Assembly: GCA_027013295.1 (NCBI GenBank) | Contig: JALUXP010000113.1 | Location: 1-35,471 of the forward strand | Origin: Sulfurimonas sp. | Lineage (GTDB): Bacteria > Campylobacterota > Campylobacteria > Campylobacterales > Sulfurimonadaceae | Direction of reading: 5' to 3' | DNA: 35,471 bases | Shown: piece by piece, positions 7,291-29,958 of the stretch | Position numbering within the stretch: position 1 is the stretch's first letter | Layout of the letters: each line of letters begins with the position of its first letter | The notes under the pieces: model-generated | The model's input: only the letters and a program-made list of their open reading frames with translations | What the model was told of the DNA's origin: nothing | Databases searched by the model: none | Made by a program: the position numbers and the translations under genes

Positions 7291-8409
7291 ATGTTTTTTA
7301 ACAACAACCATCATTCAGAGAATGAAATTAAAAAGTATCAATTAGAGATTGAAACTTTAAAGCAACAAGTAGAGGATTTAACTTCTAAAAATAATGAGTT
7401 AGAAAAGCAAGCAGGGTATGCTGATAGCAATCAAATTATGAATGATTTAATCAAGGCATTAACACATGGTTTAACAGATGGATGCGATAGAGACTTAAAG
7501 CTTCTTCAAGGCGACCTAGGCAGTAATCTTGGTGCACTTGAAGATATAGATACTAAAAATCAAGAAAATAATGAGCATACAAACTCATGTTCTGTTGGTA
7601 TTGAAACTCTTTCTGATACTATGGGTTCATTACTAGAGCATATTTCAAATACATACGAAGAGGTCAACACATTAAATAATAATGTTGAAAGTATATCTGA
7701 TGTTATTAACTTGATCAAAGATATCTCTGACCAAACAAATCTCCTTGCTTTAAATGCTGCTATAGAAGCAGCAAGAGCAGGGGAACATGGTAGAGGATTT
7801 GCAGTTGTTGCAGATGAAGTAAGAAAGTTAGCCGAGAGAACTCAAAAAGCAACAAGTGAAGTAGAGATTTCAGTTTCATCTTTAAAACAAAACACCAGTG
7901 AGATTTATGAGCATTCTAAATCTATGGAAGAGTTATCACAAAGCTCAAATGAGCAGATGGATGAGTTCCAATCAAAGATGGAAATTTTAAGAGAAAACTC
8001 ACAAATGATTTCTCAAGAGAACAAAGATATAACTTATGCTGTTTTTATGGTGTTAGTGAAACTTGATCATCTTCTTTTTAAAGCAAATGGTTACAAAACT
8101 GTCTTTAATGGTAAGATAACTGGAACTTTTGCAGCTGATGATGAATGCCGACTTGGTAAGTGGTATCTTGAGGGGATTGGTAAAGATAAATTTGGTCAAT
8201 GTGCAAGTTATGGCAAAATGGCAGCACCACATAAAGAGGTTCATGACAATATTAAAAAAGCAGTTGAGTGTGTTGAAGCTGGAACATGTACTGAGCACTC
8301 TCAAAATGTGATGACATATTTTGATTCGGCAGAAAAAGCATCCATGAAAGTTATAGAATACCTAAATAATATGTTAGAAGAGGAAAAATCTTTGAGACAT
8401 AGCAAATAA
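7291..8409 (+). CDS. Soluble methyl-accepting chemotaxis protein with C-terminal CZB zinc-binding domain (TlpD-like)
   Basis: 372 residues with no membrane segment or signal peptide, so a cytoplasmic receptor. Residues about 8-45 form a coiled coil. The MCP signalling tip is about 140-182 ([20 protein letters not shown], then [20 protein letters not shown]). Residues about 255-340 form a chemoreceptor zinc-binding (CZB) domain with the ligands visible: His260 (VKLDHLLFK), Cys286 (CRLGKWY), His314 and His318 (PHKEVH). Architecture and size resemble Helicobacter TlpD, linked to reactive oxygen, hypochlorite and energy responses. It is transcribed away from the hook operon and is followed 10 bases later by an mnmC-type gene. 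Confidence 0.92.
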
Positions 8410-8419
8410 GATAAACTCT

Positions 8420-9193
8420 TTGGTAAAAAAATTTGATGATGCACTTCACTCCCTGACACTCAGTGAAGATGGCTCATATACAGCCTATTCAAAAGAGTAT
8501 GATGAGCATTATCACTCTACAAAAGATGGGGCTTTGCATGAATCATTACTCAAACATGTGATCCCCGCTTTAGAGTTAAAAAAAGAGTTCGTGGAGATAA
8601 ACATACTCGATATCTGTTTTGGCTTAGGTTTCAATACCCTTGCAACACTCTACTATGCACACAAAAAAAAGATACAAACTAAGATAAATATATACTCTCC
8701 AGAGCTAGATGCACAGCTAGTAAACTCACTTGTACATTTTACTTATCCAAAAGAGTTTAACCACTTGAGAGTTGTTATGGAGAGTTTAGTTGAAAAAGGG
8801 AGCTATGAAGATTCATCTATATCTATAGAGCTTTATCTTGGCGATGCACGAGTTTATCTAAAAAAGTTAATGGAGAAGCAGATAAAGTTTGACATAGTCT
8901 ATCAAGATGCTTTTTCCCCCTCAACAAATCCTATACTGTGGACTAAAGAGTATTTTAAAGATATAGCCTCACTCGTAAAAGAGGATGGTGTTGTAACAAC
9001 TTATTCTATCGCTTTTAAAACCCGTCTCGCTCTTTATGAAAATGGTTTTCATCTCTATATCAATAGTGCAGAGGAGATGAGAGATGCTACAGTTGCCTCA
9101 AAAACTCAATTGGTAGATTTTGAACTGGTTGATATGCCTCATAAGATCAAATGCAACAAGGGCATAGTTGCACTGAGTGATGCTACTATCTAG
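8420..9193 (+). CDS. mnmD: MnmC/MnmD-type tRNA (mnm5s2U34) methyltransferase
   Basis: 257 residues beginning at a TTG codon (TTGGTAAAA); no ATG is suitably placed. The family is the SAM-dependent methyltransferase domain (DUF752) that finishes mnm5U34 in tRNA wobble positions. Visible motifs: the SAM loop [19 protein letters not shown], the substrate-site acid run [20 protein letters not shown], and the [20 protein letters not shown] segment. It lacks the FAD oxidase domain of bimodular MnmC, so it is a stand-alone MnmD type. MnmG, which makes the cmnm5 precursor, is encoded elsewhere in the window. Its stop codon overlaps the 3' end of the convergent rhodanese-MCP gene by 8 bases. Confidence 0.85.
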
Positions 9194-11402
9194 TTTTAAA
9201 CTTATCAAGTTGCCCTTTAAGGGTTTGAGATATTTCATAAACTTCATTAGCACTATTTGAGATATTGAGAGCATTGTCTTTATTTTGCTTAACGATGTTG
9301 TCTATCACTTCAATATTATTGATGATAAGCTCTGCATTTTTTTGAACCTCTTCGGTGCTTGTTAGCGATGAGTTTGCTAAACCAGCTGTGCTTGTTATGA
9401 TACTTTTTGTCTCTTGAAGTTTCTTTTTCATAAGTTCAGAGTTATCACTAAGCATTTTTGTTTTTTGCACATTGTCATTCATATTTGTACTCGCATCTAT
9501 GATAGATTGGACAATGACGCTTACATTGCTATGGATCTCACCGATAGCCTTTTGTGTACTTTCAGCCAGTTTTCTTACTTCATCTGCAACTACCGCAAAG
9601 CCTCTTCCATGTTCACCTGCACGAGCAGCTTCTATGGCAGCATTGAGTGCTAGTAGATTGGTTTTGTCAGCAATATCTTCTATGATACTCAGGACATCTG
9701 TAATCTTTTGTGCATCATCAGTAAGTTGGTTGAGTTTTGCTGAGATATCTTCTTCCCTGTAAGCGTTTTCTTGGATTTGATTTACAATTTGTATCACATT
9801 TTTTTGAAGTTCTTCAAGATTGTTTTGAGCCTGTGTGGTTTCCTCTTGTGTCTTTTGTACATTTGATGAAGTGACAGAGAGTGTTCCTTTCATCTCATCA
9901 CTCATGCTTTTTGTTGTGTTTACTAACTCAAATTCTTGTGAAGCTCCATTGCTGATCGCTTCTGCACTATTTTTCATCTCTAAAGTATTTTGTGCATTGT
10001 TTTGAGAAGAATCCTTAGCATCATGAAGAACCTCTCCCACTTTTTCTATAAGATGGGCAAATGCTTTGTAGATCTCACCTAGCTCATCCCTTTTGTAGTC
10101 AACAAATTTTCGTGAAAGATCAAGCGTATCAAGCATTGAGACCATATTGTTCCTGATGCCAAGGATGGAGGACTTCATAAAGATATATAAAATAGTGTTG
10201 AGTGTTGCAGAGACAAAGATAAAAAAGACTATAAGGATGAGTACATCATAAAATGTTTTTTTGAGGTTTAGTGTACTTTGGTTATAGATCTCTCTTATTT
10301 TTATATTGACTTTTTGCTCAATAATATTGAACTGTTTATTGATGATAGCACTTGAGAGTGCCCACTCGTTTGATGCGAGATTTACTAACACCTTTTTATC
10401 CTCTTTGAGATAAGCCTGTTGGAGTGCATCTAAGAGATGCTCTGAATCTTTATACTCTTTTATGATGATATCAAAAGAGTTTTTTATTTGTGCATCTTTG
10501 TAAAATTCACTTTGCATCACATTGGAGATGATATTTTTCATCTTTTTTCTTGTATCTATGAGGGCGATCCTTGCCCCCTCAAATGCTACCAAACCTGTAA
10601 GAGAGTAGGAAAGATTATTTTGAATAGAATTAAAGTTATTGATTGCGTGGAGGAGTTCATTTTGTGGTTTAAAGTTATCTTCATAGATATGATTTATAGC
10701 TATCTGTCCATCTTTTGAGGAGTTAAGAGAAAAATACCCAATAATACCCATACTTAAAACGATGATAAAGATATTGCTAAGGAGTTTTGTGGAGATAAGA
10801 TAAGATTTTTTCATAATAATATGTTTAAACGCAAAAAACAAGATGATAGCCATCACAATGCCAATGATAACACCTACTGTAACATGAAAATTAAAATCAT
10901 TTTTTATGACTTTTGTATCCATTTTTCCTACAATGTTAACTCCATCAACCTCATAACCTGCTTTGGCATACTTACCTATACCCTCTCTTAACCAATATAC
11001 ATTAGTGTAACCTTCCTTGGCGGTTGTTACTGCAGCTTTGTAAGATTTCCAACATTTAATACCGTTGCAGTAAAAAATAAGCTCTTTTGATTTATCTGGA
11101 GATATGCGTGCATCATGGTAGATATCTTTAGAATTATCAAAATCAACTATTTTATTTGCATTGCCACCTTTTTCATCGTAAAAAGCAGAGATAGCACCTT
11201 TGATATGTTCAATAGAATACTCAGGAACTTTTCTAGTATCTACAAATACAGCACCATTTTTATATTTTTCATTGGCAGTTTTAGAGTCAACAACTCTAAC
11301 ATGAAACTTTGAGGCTATCTCAGAAGATGGGGTATCTGGTTTTGCGTAAAGGTTCGTAAAAAGGAGGGTTGTTGCAAAAAGTAAAGTTATTACAGATTTC
11401 AT
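9186..11402 (-). CDS. Membrane chemoreceptor with an N-terminal periplasmic rhodanese domain
   Basis: 738 residues. Residues 1-20 are a signal peptide. Residues about 33-155 form a rhodanese domain ([20 protein letters not shown]) with two cysteines in the active loop, C112-NGIK-C117-W. Hydrophobic spans follow at about 173-193 and 207-225, joined by a short Lys-rich loop that should be cytoplasmic. Residues about 228-385 look like a periplasmic four-helix sensor, followed by a third span (387-408), a HAMP-like linker, and the MCP hairpin ([20 protein letters not shown], then [16 protein letters not shown]). Predicted topology puts rhodanese and helical sensor both in the periplasm. A role in sensing sulfur species is an inference from domain content. 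Upstream is ribE; SD GGA lies before the ATG. Confidence 0.9.
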
Positions 11403-21978: not shown

Positions 21979-22884
21979 ATGCAATTTTTAGATGTAAAAA
22001 CGGATTATGCTTTTAAAAAAGTGTTTGGAAGTGAAAACAGTAAAGATAAACTCATAAGTTTTCTCAATGCGTTGGTGTATGAGAACAAATCTACTAAAAT
22101 AAAAGACCTCACCATAGTAGATCCTTACAATATTCCACTTCTTGATGGTATGAAGAATAGCTTTGTTGATGTAAAAGCGGTTCTTGATGATAATACTAAA
22201 GTGATAATAGAGATGCAGATTTTAAATCATGAAGGGTTTGAAAAAAGAGTTTTATATAACCTCGCTAAAAATTATTCTGTTCAGCTTAATAAATCAGAAG
22301 ATTATTATCTTTTAAATCCAGTTATTGCTTTAAATATAGTTGATTTTACAATGTTTAAAGATAGTAAGAAAACTATAACAAATTTTAAACTACTTGAAAA
22401 AGAGGAGTTTATAGACTATAGCGATGATATAGAACTCATCTTTATAGAACTCCCTAAATTTAAAAAGAGTTTAGATGAGCTTGAAAACTTAAGAGATGAG
22501 TGGATATACTTCATAAAAAATGCTGGAAGTTTAGAGTATATACCAACAGAACTAAATCACACTATACAAAACTCTTTTGATATGCTCAATGAAGCAAATC
22601 TAAGTAAAGATGAATTAGAAACACAACACAAAAGAAAAGAGTTTATCTCCATACAAAAATTAGCCATCTTAAAAGCTACTAATGATGGTTTAAAGCAAGG
22701 TCTTGAAGAAGGTCTCGAGCAAGGTCTTGAAGAAGGTCTTGAGCAAGGGAGAGAGCAAGGTCTTGAGCAAGGAATGGAAGAAAAGTCCATCGAAATAGCA
22801 AAGAACCTGCTTGATATTTTAGATGATGAAACTATCTCATCTAAAACTGGGTTATCTATAGAGATTATTCAAAGTCTAAGATAA
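21979..22884 (+). CDS. Rpn-family recombination-promoting nuclease / PD-(D/E)XK transposase-like protein
   Basis: 301 residues. The N-terminus (LDVKTDYAFKKVFGSENSKD, then KLISFLNALV) is the hallmark of the Rpn/PDDEXK_2 family. The nuclease core has Asp64 (SFVDVKAVL) and Glu78-x-Gln80 (KVIIEMQI). Residues 237-268 are Gly-Leu-Glu-Gln/Glu repeats from 12-bp DNA units. The end has the family's small helical motif (EIAKNLLDILDDETISSKTG, then LSIEIIQSL). Related E. coli Rpn proteins are RecA-independent DNA nucleases that promote recombination; others are phage-defence related. It lies directly upstream of the chemosensory operon, from which a hairpin separates it. Confidence 0.88.
   Translation: MQFLDVKTDYAFKKVFGSENSKDKLISFLNALVYENKSTKIKDLTIVDPYNIPLLDGMKNSFVDVKAVLDDNTKVIIEMQILNHEGFEKRVLYNLAKNYSVQLNKSEDYYLLNPVIALNIVDFTMFKDSKKTITNFKLLEKEEFIDYSDDIELIFIELPKFKKSLDELENLRDEWIYFIKNAGSLEYIPTELNHTIQNSFDMLNEANLSKDELETQHKRKEFISIQKLAILKATNDGLKQGLEEGLEQGLEEGLEQGREQGLEQGMEEKSIEIAKNLLDILDDETISSKTGLSIEIIQSLR
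22687..22782 (+). repeat. Eight tandem 12-bp units inside the Rpn-family gene
   Basis: Units of the form GGTCTTGAGCAA or GGTCTTGAAGAA, each encoding Gly-Leu-Glu-Gln/Glu, run without gaps; units 1, 6 and 8 are diverged. Gain or loss of whole units keeps the frame, so the linker can change length. Confidence 0.9.
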
Positions 22885-23420: not shown

Positions 23421-23687
23421 ATGAAAATAGATAAAGATGAGCTTACCATTTATGAAGTAGAGGCTTTTTACGAAGAGTTGTTAGCTGAATTTGACAAAGG
23501 TGATATTGCTGTAGATATTAGCAGTCTCAACAAGATAGACATGAGTGTTATCCAGCTTTTGTTAAGTGCAAAAAAAAGTTGCCAAGAATCTTCTAAAGCT
23601 TTTCAAATCATAGGTGCAAACAGCGAAGTAACAAAAATATTTCAAGAGTCTGGATGCCAAACACTACTAGGAGTTACGGATGAATGA
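23421..23687 (+). CDS. STAS-domain protein
   Basis: 88 residues, one anti-sigma-antagonist-like STAS fold: IAVDISSLNKIDMSVIQLLL followed by SAKKSCQESSKAFQIIGANS. The Ser in DMSVIQ occupies the position phosphorylated in SpoIIAA-like proteins. It overlaps cheA by 8 bases, so it is translationally coupled. Similar small STAS proteins occur in non-canonical chemosensory operons, where their job is unclear. No anti-sigma kinase is nearby. Confidence 0.82.
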   Translation: MKIDKDELTIYEVEAFYEELLAEFDKGDIAVDISSLNKIDMSVIQLLLSAKKSCQESSKAFQIIGANSEVTKIFQESGCQTLLGVTDE

Positions 23688-25752
23688 AGAACTTGAACTC
23701 TTTGTAGAAGATGTTGACGAACAGTTGACATTTATGGAAAATGCTCTTGTAGCTATGCAAGAGAATGGTGTAGATGATGAGAGTCTAGGTGCTCTCTTTC
23801 GTGCGATGCACACCATCAAAGGTACTGCTGGTATGTTCGGCTTTGATGATGTTGTGGGGTTTGCTCATGTTGCTGAAAATCTTTTAAGTGATGTAAGAGA
23901 TGGCAAAGTTGAGTTAAATGAGGAGATGATAGAGACTTTTTTGCAGTCTAAAGATCACACACAAACTCTTGTTGATTTAGCAGTGGATGGTGAGGTACTT
24001 GATGCGAAAACACAAGCTAAAAATGACCATCTTTTAGCCATACTTAAGTCGATGCTCCCAGATGCTAAAAAAGAACCTCTAAAGATAGATGCAGAGACTT
24101 TAGAAGATGAAGAGGGCGGTGAAAAACTTTGGCATATCTCTTTGAGACTCAAGCCACATTTCTTTGCGAGTGGTATGGACATCATAAACATATTGAACTT
24201 TTTTAACATACTTGGAGAGGTAAAAAAACTTTTATGTATAGATACAAATATTCCTACACTTAAAGATATGAACCCTACTGAGGCTTATATAGGGTATGAG
24301 ATACTTTTTTTGAGTGATGCTAGTTATGCTGAGATAGAAGAGGTTTTTGAGTTTGTTATGGATGATGTTGTGCTTGAGATATTTGAGGCAACAGATATGG
24401 ATATGTTGCAAGCTTTATGTGATAATGAAGAGGGACTCAGAGAAGAACTTGTTTTTGCTGGCTTTGATAATGCTTCAAGAGTAAGAAGCACAGATGCAAG
24501 AGAAGAAGAGGTTCAAAAAACAGAAGTTAAAGAGATCTCAAAAGAACCATCTTCAAAAAAAGAGATAAAAAAAGAGACAAAGAAAGAGACAAAGAAAAGT
24601 TTCTCTTTGCGTGTTGACTCGAGCAAAATAGACTCTCTCATAAACCAAATCTCAGAGATGGTAATAGCCAATGCTAAAGTAACTCAAAGAGCTGATGCTC
24701 TTGATGATAATGAGCTAAGTGAATCAGCAACTATACTTAGTGATATGTTAGAAGAGATACGAACAGGCATTATGAACATCCGTATGGTACAAGTTGGCGA
24801 TAGTTTCAACAAGTTTAAGCGAATCGTGAATGATGTAGCTAAAAAAGTAGACAAAGAGATAGATTTTGAGATAGTTGGTGGCGAGACTGAACTTGATAAA
24901 ATGGTGGTAGAGAAGATCTCTGACCCACTGATGCACATGCTTAGGAACTCTATAGATCATGGAGTAGAAACACCACAAGAGAGAAAAGCAGTAGGAAAAA
25001 GTCCCAAAGGACATGTAAGACTTAAAACTTACCCAGATGCAGGTACTATTGTTATAGAGATAAGTGATGATGGGCGAGGTCTTCCAAGAGATAAGATTTT
25101 AGCAAAAGCGATCGCAAATGGCTTGGTTGAAGAGAACAATAATCTCAGCGACAAAGAGATTTACAATCTTATCTTTGCAGCAGGTCTCTCAACAGCTGAA
25201 AAGGTCTCAGATATCTCTGGTCGTGGTGTTGGGATGGATGTTGTCAAAAGAAACATAGAGGCTTTGCGTGGAACAGTAGAGATAGACTCTAAATCTGGTG
25301 AGGGAAGTCTCTTTACTATACGACTTCCACTTACTCTTGCTATCATTGACGGTTTTCTCATACAGTCAGGAAATACTAAATATATCATCCCTTTAGAGAT
25401 GATTCAAGAGTGCATAGAACTTGATGCACATTACAAAAAAGAGATGGATGGAAATGAGTTTATCAACCTTCGTGACTCGATGCTTCCTCTCTTAGATGTT
25501 CGTAGCTATTTTAACGAGCAAGAGACACAGAGTGAACGAGAAAATATCGTAGTGGTTCGTTTTGGAGAGTACAAGGTGGGAATGATGGTAGATGAACTCT
25601 TTGGAGAGTTTCAAACAGTTATAAAACCTCTTGGAGAGGTGTTTAGTAATGTTGTAGGTGTTAGTGGAGGAACTATTTTAGGAAGTGGCGAGATAGCTCT
25701 TATATTTGATATTCCAAAACTTATGGAACACAAGATCAGAGAATCTCTGTAG
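23680..25752 (+). CDS. cheA: Chemotaxis histidine kinase CheA
   Basis: 690 residues. HPt domain about 1-105 with His44 (RAMHTIKGTAGMFGF); a P2-like region about 148-235 starting KLWHISLRLKPHFFASGMDI; Lys/Glu-rich linker 275-306; dimerisation region about 307-375; ATPase domain with N box LRNSIDHGVE (421-430), G1 DDGRGLP (463-469) and G2 GRGVGMD (514-520); CheW-like domain about 550-690. All catalytic features are intact. Codons from about 620 to the stop are copied 1296 bp downstream in a near-identical direct repeat, but this upstream copy is the complete gene. Confidence 0.97.
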   Translation: MNEELELFVEDVDEQLTFMENALVAMQENGVDDESLGALFRAMHTIKGTAGMFGFDDVVGFAHVAENLLSDVRDGKVELNEEMIETFLQSKDHTQTLVDLAVDGEVLDAKTQAKNDHLLAILKSMLPDAKKEPLKIDAETLEDEEGGEKLWHISLRLKPHFFASGMDIINILNFFNILGEVKKLLCIDTNIPTLKDMNPTEAYIGYEILFLSDASYAEIEEVFEFVMDDVVLEIFEATDMDMLQALCDNEEGLREELVFAGFDNASRVRSTDAREEEVQKTEVKEISKEPSSKKEIKKETKKETKKSFSLRVDSSKIDSLINQISEMVIANAKVTQRADALDDNELSESATILSDMLEEIRTGIMNIRMVQVGDSFNKFKRIVNDVAKKVDKEIDFEIVGGETELDKMVVEKISDPLMHMLRNSIDHGVETPQERKAVGKSPKGHVRLKTYPDAGTIVIEISDDGRGLPRDKILAKAIANGLVEENNNLSDKEIYNLIFAAGLSTAEKVSDISGRGVGMDVVKRNIEALRGTVEIDSKSGEGSLFTIRLPLTLAIIDGFLIQSGNTKYIIPLEMIQECIELDAHYKKEMDGNEFINLRDSMLPLLDVRSYFNEQETQSERENIVVVRFGEYKVGMMVDELFGEFQTVIKPLGEVFSNVVGVSGGTILGSGEIALIFDIPKLMEHKIRESL

Positions 25753-25839
25753 ATGAAGTATGATATTGCCTATTTTCAAAGAGGAGGAAGAGATGTACAA
25801 GGTAGATATAGAAAGATTACCATCTTTCATGATAGGTGA
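25538..25839 (+). repeat. Direct repeat copy 1 (302 bp): cheA 3' end and following bases
   Basis: Identical to 26834-27135 except at 25819 (A/G) and 25828 (C/T), with no indels (constant offset 1296). It covers the last 71 codons of cheA, the stop, an RBS-like GAGGAGGAAGAG, and the first 15 or so codons of the small Rpn-like ORF. Sequence flanking the two copies is unrelated on both sides. Confidence 0.97.
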
Positions 25840-26005
25840 AGAAAGAGGTTTAGAGCAAGGTTTAGAGCAAGGTGTTTATAAACAGAATATAAAAGTTGCA
25901 AAAGCACTGTTATCAAAAAATAGTGACATTACTTTTATAGTGGATATTACTGGTTTAAGTGTTGTCGAGGTTCAAAAGCTTCAGAGTTGTGAAGAGAAAA
26001 ACTAG
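25793..26005 (+). pseudogene. C-terminal remnant of an Rpn/PD-(D/E)XK family gene
   Basis: 70 codons from the ATG that follows GAGGAGGAAGAG (an upstream ATG at 25760 is also in frame). The product, including GEERGLEQGLEQGVY and the end DITFIVDITGLSVVEVQKLQ, matches the Gly-Leu-Glu-Gln linker and terminal helical motif of Rpn-family proteins such as the one at 21979, but the whole nuclease domain is missing. The stop abuts the ATG of the MNT gene. It could still be translated as a small protein, but it most likely represents a truncated gene. Confidence 0.75.
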
Positions 26006-26353
26006 ATGTTAGAGATGAGTATAGAAACATTGAAAAAAGAGATAGTCAGTAGACTAAAACCTTTAGAGTTGCAACAAATAACACTATTTGGTTCATTTGC
26101 TTACGGGAAGCCAAATGAAGATAGTGACATAGATTTATATGTTGTTACTTCAGATGACTTTATACCAAAAAGTTATGCTCAGAGTATGTCTATCAGATTA
26201 AAAGTTGCTAATGCTTTAGAGGAGTTACAAGCGATTATTCCTATAGATATAGTGACACATACAAAAAAAATGTATGAAAAATTTGTTGAACAAAATAGTA
26301 GTTTTTCAAAAGAAATTTTACAAAAGGGGGAGTTGTTATGGGGACATCACTAG
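26006..26353 (+). CDS. MNT-type minimal nucleotidyltransferase (probable antitoxin partner of HEPN)
   Basis: 115 residues. It shows the polymerase-beta nucleotidyltransferase motif: Gly29-Ser30 (LFGSFAYGK), then Asp41-x-Asp43 (EDSDIDLYVV), with a third acid at Asp81 (IPIDIVTHTK), so catalysis looks possible. Small enzymes of this family next to HEPN proteins form toxin-antitoxin or defence pairs. The gene overlaps the HEPN gene by 16 bases, indicating a tightly coupled unit. The start ATG abuts the previous stop; a second ATG is at codon 4. Confidence 0.88.
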   Translation: MLEMSIETLKKEIVSRLKPLELQQITLFGSFAYGKPNEDSDIDLYVVTSDDFIPKSYAQSMSIRLKVANALEELQAIIPIDIVTHTKKMYEKFVEQNSSFSKEILQKGELLWGHH

Positions 26354-26727
26354 CTTTAGATTGGTTGCAATCTGCAAATGATGACCTTGAAGTTATTAGA
26401 AAAATAATTAATGATGAAAGATTAACTCATATCGTTGCTTTTCATGCTCAGCAGTCGATAGAAAAATCTTTTAAAGCAGTTATGGAGTATAAAAATATAA
26501 GTGTACCAAAAGTACATAAACTACAATTTCTGATAGCTAAAATTGATTTGAAAATAGAAATGGAAGAGAGTATATTAAAAGTCTTAGATGAACTCTATAT
26601 AGACTCAAGATACCCTGGTAATTTAGGTTTATTGCCCTATGGTAAACCAACACTGAGTGATGCTGATTTATTTTTTAAACAAGCATTAAATATTTATTTA
26701 AAAATAGAAAACAAAATAAAAGGATAA
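26338..26727 (+). CDS. HEPN-domain protein (PF05168-like), partner of MNT
   Basis: 129 residues, an all-helical HEPN protein: WLQSANDDLEVIRKIINDER, then IVAFHAQQSIEKSFKAVMEY, then VPKVHKLQFLIAKID and LYIDSRYPG. HxAQQxxEKxxKA and the Y..xRYP ending are signatures of the HEPN family paired with nucleotidyltransferases. The RX4-6H RNase motif of toxic HepT-type proteins is not evident, so toxicity is not assured. A nucleotide-binding or RNA-targeting role with MNT is the usual suggestion. GGGGGAG precedes the ATG inside the MNT gene. Confidence 0.87.
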   Translation: MGTSLALDWLQSANDDLEVIRKIINDERLTHIVAFHAQQSIEKSFKAVMEYKNISVPKVHKLQFLIAKIDLKIEMEESILKVLDELYIDSRYPGNLGLLPYGKPTLSDADLFFKQALNIYLKIENKIKG

Positions 26728-26730
26728 AAA

Positions 26731-27048
26731 ATGGCAGAAAAAAACTTAGAGAAAGATTGTTAAAAACTTAAAAAAGAGAATAAGCAGTTAAAAGTAAACT
26801 TTAAACAGTTAGTAGATGAGATAGGACTTCTTAGAGAAAATATCGTAGTGGTTCGTTTTGGAGAGTACAAGGTGGGAATGATGGTAGATGAACTCTTTGG
26901 AGAGTTTCAAACAGTTATAAAACCTCTTGGAGAGGTGTTTAGTAATGTTGTAGGTGTTAGTGGAGGAACTATTTTAGGAAGTGGCGAGATAGCTCTTATA
27001 TTTGATATTCCAAAACTTATGGAACACAAGATCAGAGAATCTCTGTAG
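26731..27048 (+). pseudogene. Broken coiled-coil ORF fused in frame to a duplicated CheA C-terminus
   Basis: An ATG four bases after the HEPN stop opens a frame (MAEKNLEKDC) that hits TAA at 26761-26763 and then continues in the same frame as KLKKENKQLKVNFKQLVDEI and GLLRE. At 26834 it passes without a shift into ENIVVVRFGEYKVGMMVDEL, the CheA C-terminus, ending at the CheA stop. So one nonsense codon splits an otherwise continuous hybrid of a Lys/Glu-rich coiled coil and the last 70 CheA residues. Internal GTG (26848) could start a 66-residue piece, but no ribosome site supports it. The coiled-coil part is not recognised. Confidence 0.75.
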
Positions 27049-27135
27049 ATGAAGTATGATATTGCCTATTTTCAAAGAGGAGGAAGAGATGTACAAGGTA
27101 GATATAGAAAGATTGCCATCTTTTATGATAGGTGA
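26834..27135 (+). repeat. Direct repeat copy 2 (302 bp)
   Basis: The second copy of 25538-25839, with differences only at 27115 and 27124. After the copied cheA stop (27046-27048) it repeats the RBS-like GAGGAGGAAGAG and MYKVDIERLPSFMIGE, then diverges to GEVKGTQK and a TGA that overlaps the start of the PAS gene. Confidence 0.97.
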
Positions 27136-27153
27136 GGTGAAAGGAACTCAAAA

Positions 27154-27993
27154 ATGAATAGTTTAGAGAAAGAAGTTAATGTTAAAGAGGGTGATGTTTT
27201 AGTGAGTATGACCGATGTAAAGGGTAACATAACCTATGCAAATGATATATTTTGTCAAACGGCTGGATATACAAGAGAGGAGATACTAGGAAAACCTCAC
27301 AATATTGTAAGACATCCAGATATGCCAAAGGTTGTTTTTAAAGTTTTGTGGGATGCTGTTCTTGATGGAAAGTCAGTAAGTGCCTTTGTAAAGAACAAAG
27401 TAAATGGTGGTGGATTTTACTGGGTAAGAGCTTTTGTAGCTCCTGTTATGGTAAATGGAACTATATCGCATATTATCTCCTATAGACGACGCATTGAAGA
27501 TTCTCAAAAAGAGGTTCTTAACTCTTTGTATGGGACTTTAGTGGATTACGAGAGGAGACACAGTGTTAAAGAGTCTTATCAGTTCTTTATGGATTTTTTA
27601 GATAAAAGGAAGTTAAACTACCGAGAGTTTCTAAATCGTATTAGTGAAAATAAACAGGTTACAAATGTAGATGCTCTCAATATTGACTTAACGCATGCTA
27701 AAGTTGATCACCTTATCTTTAGTATAAATATTGAGGAGAGAGTAAAGCGTGGAGAAAAAAACTTTGAAGTAACAAAACCGTGTTGTTGCAGAGTTGGAAA
27801 GTGGATAGAGTCTCTCTCTGGGACCGCTATGGCTCACTCTAGGGAGTGGAAAGATTTTGTAAGTTCTCATAGTGTTTTTCATAACAATATGCAACTATAT
27901 GCAAATGGACAAAGTTCTATATTGGCTCAAGCAAAAGAGGATGAACTCAAAATATATGAGAGTTTACAAAAAGTTATAGATACTACAAAATAA
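27154..27993 (+). CDS. Aer-type PAS protein with C-terminal CZB domain
   Basis: 279 residues, soluble. PAS domain about 13-112 closely follows E. coli Aer: ITYANDIFCQTAGYTREEIL, then PHNIVRHPDMPKVVFKVLWD and GFYWVRAFVAPV; the VRHPDMP stretch is part of the Aer flavin site, so FAD binding and redox/energy sensing are likely. Residues about 178-255 form a CZB zinc domain with His186 (VDHLIF), Cys212 (CRVGKW), His239 and His243 (HSVFH). There is no MCP hairpin, so it probably signals through the adjacent poly-HAMP receptor, much as CetB works with CetA in Campylobacter. GTGAAAGGAAC lies before the ATG. Confidence 0.9.
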   Translation: MNSLEKEVNVKEGDVLVSMTDVKGNITYANDIFCQTAGYTREEILGKPHNIVRHPDMPKVVFKVLWDAVLDGKSVSAFVKNKVNGGGFYWVRAFVAPVMVNGTISHIISYRRRIEDSQKEVLNSLYGTLVDYERRHSVKESYQFFMDFLDKRKLNYREFLNRISENKQVTNVDALNIDLTHAKVDHLIFSINIEERVKRGEKNFEVTKPCCCRVGKWIESLSGTAMAHSREWKDFVSSHSVFHNNMQLYANGQSSILAQAKEDELKIYESLQKVIDTTK

Positions 27994-28008: not shown

Positions 28009-29958
28009 ATGGCAAAGATAAAAGAAAAAAAAAGCAGTAGTGAAAAAGATGTTGCAGTTATGGTAGATGCTCTACAAGCATTGGTAAATGGTGATTTTAA
28101 CTGTATGTTAAAGACAAAGAACTCTAAACTATCTGATGTTTACAACAAGCTTTGTACGCAACTTAGTAATCTTCATGATGATTCTATGATGATGCACAAG
28201 GCATCTCAAGAGGGACAACTTGATGTTCGTATAGATACTACAAAATACAATGGTACCTTTTCAGGCATTACAGATGGCATAAACTCCACTATGGACTTAA
28301 CTGTTGGAAACTTAAGAATAGTTGGTTCGGCGATAAGTGACTTAGGACAGGGAGAATTTAGTGCCCAAGTAAGTGAGCATATGAGCGGTGATTTTGCTGT
28401 TTTAAAAGATGGAGTCAATAACTTAAGTGCAAACCTATCTAACCTTATTGAAGATGCAAATATTTTATCAGCCGCTGTTGGAAATGGGGAGACTAAAATA
28501 AGAATCCAAACAGGAAAATATGAAAATGATTTTCTAACATTAACAAATAGTCTCAATACAACGATTGAAACATTTGATAAAGCTTTTGCAGATGCCATTT
28601 TTGGTTTTAACGCTTTGCAAAATGGAAAGTTTGATGCAAGAATAGAGACAGAATACCAAGGGGACTTTGATGTAGTTAAACAAGCAGCCAACAATGCAGC
28701 GGCACAACTTGAAAAACTACTTAAAAATTATAATGATGGATATGCTGAGATAGAGAAAGGGAATATATCAGCTAGAGTTGAAACAGAGGGCTTTACAAAT
28801 GACTACTTAAAAATAATCGGTGTTGTTAATGATACTTTATCAGTTGTTCAAAATGCTTTTGCAGATACAATATTTGGTTTGAATGCACTTCAAAACGGAG
28901 AGCTTGATAAAAGAATTACAACAGAATATCAAGGTGATTTTGATGTAGTAAAACAAGCTGTGAACAATACAGCATCAACACTCCAAGATATTATTAAGGA
29001 AACAGGGACTGTTCTCTCGTGTATGGCAGATGGTGATATGACAGTTACAATAAAAAGTAATTTTGTTGGAGATACAGAGGCTATTAAAACTGCAACAAAT
29101 ACAATGGCTGAAAAACTTCAAACTATTGTTGGTCGTATTAACAGTGGAGTAACAGAGATAGCATCAGCTTCTACACAAGTAAGTGCATCTTCGCAGTCTC
29201 TTTCTCAAGGTGCAACTGAACAAGCAAGTTCACTAGAAGAGACAAGTGCAGCTCTTGAAGAGATGAGTGGAAGTGTCGCAGAGTCTGCAAAAAATGCACA
29301 AAAAACAAATGACTTAGCAGAAGAGGCATCTGTTATGGCTATAGATGGTGGAGAAGCCGTTACGAAAACTGTAGATGCTATGGTTCTCATCAGTGAAAAA
29401 ATCTCTATCATCGAAGATATAGTTTACCAAACAAACCTCTTAGCACTCAATGCCGCCATCGAAGCAGCAAGAGCAGGGGAGCATGGTAAAGGTTTTGCAG
29501 TAGTTGCTGCAGAGGTGCGAAAACTAGCAAAACGCTCACAAGTAGCAGCACAAGAGATAAGTACCATCACAACTGATAGTGTGAAGATAAGTGAAAAAGC
29601 AGGTAGTCTCATAAGTAGTGTTGTACCAAAGATTCAAGAAACAGCAGAACTTATCAAAGATATAGCAAATGCAGCAAAAGAGCAAGATATAGGTCTAGGT
29701 CAGATAAACACTGCCATGACACAACTAGACCAAGTGACACAAACAAACGCAGCATCTTCTCAAGAGATGGCAAGTGCTAGTGAAGAGCTTAACGGACAAG
29801 CAAACTCACTCAACCAAATGATGAGTTTCTTTAAAGTAGCAGAGGGAGATATGTTTAGCACTCCAGCCCCTCTAGCAGCACCGCAAGCACGCCAGACTGC
29901 ACAAACACCAGAGACCTCTAACGGTGGTTTAGATCTTCGCCAATTCGATAGATACTAA
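28009..29958 (+). CDS. Soluble poly-HAMP methyl-accepting chemotaxis protein
   Basis: 649 residues with no signal peptide or membrane span. Residues about 20-374 are a chain of about eight HAMP-like units of some 45 residues (near 20-56, 60-102, 103-147, 148-193, 194-238, 239-284, 285-329, 330-374). Units 5 and 7 are nearly the same ([20 protein letters not shown] against [20 protein letters not shown]). The MCP hairpin follows with [20 protein letters not shown] then [21 protein letters not shown] Pro/Ala-rich tail ends LDLRQFDRY, which could be a CheR/CheB tether, though it does not match the classic NWETF. It has no input domain of its own, so the PAS-CZB protein upstream is the likely sensor. 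Confidence 0.93.

Follow-up and report, generated by a model that had tools for sequence, protein, structure and literature searches.

Direct repeats of the cheA end around antitoxin-like and MNT-HEPN genes in a chemosensory operon of Sulfurimonas sp.: a candidate scar of allele import

How did a chemosensory operon come to carry the end of its own cheA twice, with accessory genes enclosed between the two copies? The question is raised by a 35,471-nucleotide stretch of Sulfurimonas sp. (GCA_027013295.1), which is the whole of contig JALUXP010000113.1 (C113) and is called the window here. In the che operon of this contig, a 302-bp direct repeat brackets an open reading frame (ORF) resembling the antitoxin half of an Rpn gene (RpnS-like), a minimal nucleotidyltransferase (MNT) gene, a HEPN gene and a broken ORF. 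The duplication is real in the assembly and looks like an ordinary recent recombination scar with no special device in it. With modest confidence, this scar is attributed to the import of DNA from another allele of this chemosensory operon. Coordinates of all features are collected in Table 1.

The repeat pair and its joints

The two copies are identical at 300 of 302 positions, show no insertion or deletion, and are spaced 1296 bp apart. Immediately beyond both ends the identity is no higher than by chance (7/20 bases to the left and 8/20 to the right), which confirmed the sharp breakpoints described in an earlier note on this DNA. A search of the own genome (G000; 134 contigs, 2.06 Mb) returned these two copies only. 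The two mismatches, at 25819/27115 (A/G) and 25828/27124 (C/T), both fall in the last 21 bases, as had also been stated earlier, leaving the first 281 bp of the copies without a single difference. Both are synonymous in the Rpn frame. The chance that two random mutations would both land in the last 21 of 302 bp is about 0.5%, and later mutation is therefore less likely than an allelic difference or an edge left unconverted. Given this low chance of clustering, the proposal that the mismatches mark the edge of a conversion tract is plausible, although an allelic difference fits equally well.

The upstream cheA is whole, encoding Hpt, H-kinase_dim, HATPase_c and CheW domains, and downstream the operon continues with PAS-CZB, MCP, CheW, CheV and CheR genes, in agreement with the earlier description. 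The same description took the repeat for the 3' end of cheA, which holds for codons 620-690 and the stop codon (25538-25752), but the last ~73-80 bp of the repeat belong to the tail of an Rpn (PDDEXK_2) gene, with a frame starting at ~25760. This tail is present in both copies. The cheA-Rpn fusion is therefore older, as judged from sequence, than the duplication of the repeat, an order of events that is read directly from the arrangement of the parts.

The copies differ in what follows. Copy 1 runs on to the natural end of the Rpn frame at 26005, and copy 2 breaks off where it meets the PAS-CZB gene, its Rpn frame stopping at ...SFMIGE and closing with VKGTQK*, the TGA of which overlaps the PAS-CZB start codon (ATGA). 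The Rpn remnant that had been placed between the repeats thus begins inside the repeat, while MNT and HEPN stand between them, as claimed, and are intact. The stub ORF that is left in copy 2 has a strong Shine-Dalgarno sequence and its stop on the PAS start (27078-27157), and the scar may couple translation of PAS to that of the stub.

The remaining ORF of the insert (26731-26833) had been listed as broken, which it is, with a TAA at codon 11 where G023 has AAA. It can now be given an identity. The stretch 26712-26833 (AATAAAAGGATAAAAAATGGCAGAAAAAAAC...) is the start of an MCP gene, here termed MCP', that stands directly behind cheA in the genomes G023, G035, G131, G144, G168, and G169. It matches G023 at 96 of 122 bases (79%) without gaps and with the ribosome-binding site region included, and the match vanishes at 26834. 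The MCP' gene of G035, used as a query, recovers the same stretch with one TAA. In the own genome, the search for further copies of MCP' returned paralogous MCP stretches only. At 26833/26834, the joint is abrupt and the MCP' frame enters cheA codon 620 in phase. Two joints are thus present, the one between MCP' and cheA codon 620 and the older one between the Rpn tail and the PAS leader. The insert is richer in AT than the contig, with 25-33% GC vs 36%.

Related operons and the origin of the scar

Related genomes lacking the insert had been suggested as a check, and they were found. In the closest relatives that have PAS, namely G123, the nearest genome by cheA (88% DNA identity; 93% amino acid identity for PAS), and G059, the order is cheA-PAS-MCP with a short junction, no insert and no Rpn stub. 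At least 14 other operons carry a PAS-CZB or MCP gene directly after cheA without an insert, so that at least 16 related operons have the short junction. No relative shares the duplication and 281 bp are identical, on which grounds an old duplication was rejected and the proposed insertion scar was upheld. With 0 differences in 281 positions, the 95% upper bound of divergence between the copies is ~1.1%, compared with a DNA divergence of ~11% from G123. The duplication is therefore probably recent, and much younger than the divergence from the nearest relative, unless gene conversion kept the copies alike.

Between G000 and G123, DNA identity is ~89% in cheA and in PAS-MCP alike; therefore PAS-MCP is taken to be native and the MCP' piece to be the import. 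The block after cheA would be a segment of a variant operon with the order cheA-(RpnS-MNT-HEPN)-MCP'. Chemosensory operons of Sulfurimonas occur as the alleles cheA-PAS-MCP and cheA-MCP', and all upstream and downstream genes of the locus are orthologous to theirs. In contrast to these, it is the only locus seen with pieces of both alleles and an accessory block after cheA.

Import of the second allele could have proceeded as follows. Several sister Sulfurimonas carry cheA followed by the alternative receptor gene MCP', and in an unsampled sister the RpnS-like ORF, MNT, and HEPN would have landed between the two. A fragment reaching from the cheA end over RpnS, MNT and HEPN to the start of MCP' would then have entered a cell with a cheA-PAS-MCP operon, the chromosome of which, in the single-crossover form of this scheme, would have read cheA-Rpn stub-PAS. 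RecA pairing across the cheA end would have anchored the fragment, and its far end inside MCP' would have met cheA codon 620 in an illegitimate joint. The simplest way to this is that the fragment circularised and then underwent a single crossover within the shared 302 bp. The outcome would be repeat-cargo-repeat with PAS and MCP intact downstream, and this route would also explain why each mismatch is linked to the flank after its copy. We infer the direction of transfer, the circularisation with a single crossover, and a same-species source of the final event.

Such a route has precedents. In E. coli, linear DNA has been documented to circularise and integrate by a single crossover, with duplication of the homologous end (PMC3240628), and merodiploids generated by transformation are known (PMC3784515). 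The host has the ComEC and DprA families (comEC, dprA), which permits uptake and is no proof of competence. The locus resembles homology-facilitated illegitimate recombination (HFIR) and the single crossover of circularised fragments (PMC3240628; S. pneumoniae, A. baylyi, P. stutzeri, E. coli) in having one probable homologous anchor and another end that may have been joined at little or no homology, and it shares with the circularised-fragment form the duplication of the homologous end. It differs in that HFIR typically yields an insertion together with a deletion, whereas here a duplication is found and no operon gene is lost, and in the extra Rpn scar of copy 2, which requires another step.

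Several points weigh against the import. The donor order cheA-RpnS-MNT-HEPN-MCP' was found in no genome examined. Because the Rpn tail sits in both copies, the recipient must already have carried the Rpn stub before PAS, and a prior event is needed. Natural transformation of the host itself is putative. The signs of a donor-derived cheA 3' end in both copies are no more than suggestive: divergence from G123 is highest over the final 87 bp of cheA (18/87 vs 198/1958; Fisher p 0.004, post hoc), and the approximately unbiased (AU) test on the last 90 bp did not reject a G000+G123 clade (p 0.265). Direct origin of one copy from the cheA of another species is unlikely because 281 bp are identical.

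Two observations on cheA may be added. The segment 25538-25655 is G123-like (support 87/83), and the last ~90 bp of the gene (25656-25752) are nearer to other lineages than to the closest relative, a possible small imported tract. In G168 (L097, 2940-4974), the cheA alignment is split into residues 1-289 and 307-684, for which a variable linker, a break in the frame or a sequencing error may be responsible.

The same arrangement could have been built in situ, a course of events considered possible but rather unlikely. An operon of the order cheA-RpnS-MNT-HEPN-MCP', imported or resident, would have come first, the 1,296-bp unit from cheA codon 620 to MCP' codon 35 would have been tandemly duplicated, and a deletion that began within the Rpn tail and reached the PAS ribosome-binding site would have removed the second cargo and the rest of MCP'. 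The presence of the same cheA-Rpn fusion in both copies is accounted for in this way, as is the end of copy 2 inside the Rpn tail at a GGTGA/GGTGA joint, and no second strain is required to explain the 281 bp of perfect identity. However, PAS-MCP would have to be kept downstream of MCP', an order seen in no relative, and the position of both mismatches in the last 21 bp is left unexplained. Either route of the earlier note, a donor carrying the cheA end plus cargo integrated by a single crossover or a duplication that trapped the cargo, may apply. Its donor is a good description because part of another operon (MCP') is present in the insert, although a divergent donor cheA is disfavoured.

The abrupt, in-frame joint of MCP' with cheA also bears on the assembly. 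A short-read assembler could link two strains via an identical stretch of 281 bp, and a partial mosaic would then combine cheA-RpnS-MNT-HEPN strains (perhaps with a tandem array) and cheA-Rpn stub-PAS strains through the collapsed repeat. The genome is in 134 contigs with 2.5% contamination, and the two mismatches lie within read length of the diverging flank, as they would for two strains sharing such a repeat. The joint itself, in contrast, is not accounted for by k-mer overlap, as the longest exact match between the insert and upstream cheA is 12 bp and lies elsewhere, and a mosaic is judged improbable. A mobile element or toxin-antitoxin cassette with its own machinery, for which the 302-bp repeats would be target-site duplications or attachment sites, is barely credible. 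While the cargo is flanked by direct repeats and Rpn proteins have been called transposase-like, no recombinase is present in the insert, the Rpn part is without a nuclease domain, and the repeat ends mid-gene, once in cheA and once in Rpn. Furthermore, MNT-HEPN pairs elsewhere in the genus have no Rpn or che sequence flanking them within ~1.5 kb, HEPN had no matches in plasmids or phages, and MNT had none in viral contigs. A transposon, insertion sequence or integrative element was rejected for the missing recombinase and for ends that are not defined but lie mid-gene.

Table 1. Features of the che operon region around the repeat pair (window coordinates)
Feature	Coordinates	Strand	Evidence
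cheA, intact, 690 amino acids, after RR and STAS in the che operon	23680..25752	+	domains; 93% amino acid identity to G123
Repeat copy 1: cheA codons 620-690 and stop, 7 bp, start of Rpn C-terminal fragment	25538..25839	+	sequence comparison
RpnS-like ORF, 70 amino acids, Rpn tail without nuclease domain, GLEQ repeats, three-helix model	25793..26005	+	sequence, model
MNT, minimal nucleotidyltransferase, GSX10DXD	26006..26353	+	domain search, alignment
HEPN, PF05168 (HEPN-T) type, overlaps MNT by 16 bp	26338..26727	+	domain search, alignment
MCP' ribosome-binding site and first ~35 codons; TAA at codon 11	26712..26833	+	G023 match 96/122, gap-free, ends at junction
Joint of MCP' with cheA codon 620, probably illegitimate, in frame, little shared sequence	26833..26834	.	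sequence comparison
Repeat copy 2: cheA tail lacking the front of the gene, followed by a truncated Rpn tail	26834..27135	+	sequence comparison
Rpn stub ORF, 22 codons, same AGGAGG-ATG; TGA overlaps PAS start	27089..27157	+	sequence
PAS-CZB gene, native follower of cheA in G123 and G059	27154..27993	+	domains, comparison
Native MCP, three HAMP_2 and MCPsignal; operon goes on to CheW, CheV, CheR	28009..29958	+	domains, comparison

The RpnS-like ORF and the MNT-HEPN pair

The frame from ~25760 encodes PIFKEEEEMYKVDIERLPSFMIGEERGLEQG... and aligns at 42-45% with full-length Rpn proteins of other Campylobacterota over their C-terminal part. Its later part matches TIGR01784 at positions 223-273, below the cut-off, and the PDDEXK nuclease domain was not found in the fragment, which gave no match to Pfam PDDEXK_2. 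An AGGAGG lies 5 nt upstream of the ATG at 25793, a pattern found only twice in the window, once per repeat copy. A comparable AGGAGG-ATG occurs at the corresponding position in a full-length Rpn gene of G080, and such a gene of G065 has GAGGAG ahead of an ATG. From residue 19 of the ORF, 18 residues past the Met, the sequence reads GLEQGLEQ; four-residue repeats of RpnS proteins occur 8-20 residues after the Met (PMC10327210). AlphaFold2 predicted three helices, the first of them long (pLDDT 80.8), and the top Foldseek match of the model in the PDB was E. coli RpnA-S (7th0), with a probability of 0.95 and a TM by target of 0.80, although with a weak E of 0.74.

The remaining Rpn part is therefore described as antitoxin-like, and would correspond to the antitoxin half of the E. 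coli RpnA system with the nuclease half gone. A Met with a strong Shine-Dalgarno sequence and four-residue repeats are shared with the RpnL/RpnS gene-within-gene toxin-antitoxin systems (PMC10327210; 7th0), and the three modelled helices may be a further likeness. In contrast to these, the nuclease-coding part is absent here and only the antitoxin-like half is kept.

Other Rpn genes were observed nearby and in related genomes. In the window, an intact Rpn (PDDEXK_2) gene at 21979-22884 lies between a dnaJ-like gene and the first gene of the che operon (RR). It was rejected as the source from which the Rpn tail was copied, as identity is only 38% and the number of four-residue repeats is different. 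In G123, the same slot holds a seemingly broken Rpn gene, and in G168 an Rpn gene lies on the other side of the dnaJ-like gene. An internal ATG with AGGAGG upstream, the pattern to be expected of RpnL/RpnS genes, was also noted in a full-length Rpn gene of another Campylobacterota genome (L064, 1516-1530).

The MNT and HEPN reading frames are both intact, and MNT begins right at the Rpn stop. MNT carries the GSX10DXD motif as GSFAYGKPNEDSDID and is conserved compared to 11 homologues, whereas its score against the NCBIfam model of the MntA antitoxin (38.9 bits) is below the cut-off of 60. HEPN has an invariant (S/A)RYP block and an invariant FH(A/S)QQ among its homologues. The canonical RX4-6H ribonuclease motif is absent from it, and its conserved block is SRYPGN. 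PF05168 is classed as HEPN-T, in which the H of RX4-6H is often replaced (PMC3710099).

The pair resembles type VII HepT/MntA in that an MNT with GSX10DXD lies upstream of HEPN and overlaps it by 16 bp. It differs from that system in its PF05168 HEPN with SRYPGN in place of RX4-6H and in an MNT below the MntA cut-off. The pair is consequently named MNT-HEPN and described as toxin-antitoxin-like, and is not assigned to the type VII toxin-antitoxin systems. A match to this HEPN occurs in 22 of 135 Sulfurimonas genomes, in none of them beside cheA, and MNT-HEPN next to cheA was not seen in any other genome examined. The suggestion that a toxin-antitoxin pair placed here stabilises the che operon is not supported.

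Expression and significance

All genes of the block and the operon are co-directional. No terminator-like site was found on the + strand, and promoter-like sites that could serve the cargo internally were not above expectation (12 vs 10.6 in shuffles). For these reasons, co-transcription of the RpnS-like ORF, MNT, and HEPN with the che operon is likely. No Rfam match to an RNA element was obtained. Excision by recombination between the repeats, as raised in the earlier note, is possible: RecA could delete the 1,296-bp unit. That the repeats act as a reversible switch, in which deletion or amplification of the RpnS-MNT-HEPN unit co-transcribed with cheA alters receptor expression and defence state, is very improbable. 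If it were true, MNT-HEPN together with the RpnS half would make up a composite module, immune or regulatory, that is coupled to chemotaxis.

Further chemoreceptor features were observed on the same contig. The downstream MCP gene contains 273-bp in-gene repeats (28387-28997; HAMP_2 units) that are 69-75% alike. At 7291-11402, two more chemoreceptors are found close to flagellar hook genes; one carries a zinc-binding CZB domain, the other a rhodanese domain.

The locus alone shows no new mechanism or function. It does provide a case, open to testing, in which only the antitoxin half of an Rpn gene is left. In addition, it captures, at a point that can be dated, a way for accessory toxin-antitoxin-like genes to get into a conserved signalling operon, as passengers of operon allele exchange and not by mobility of their own.

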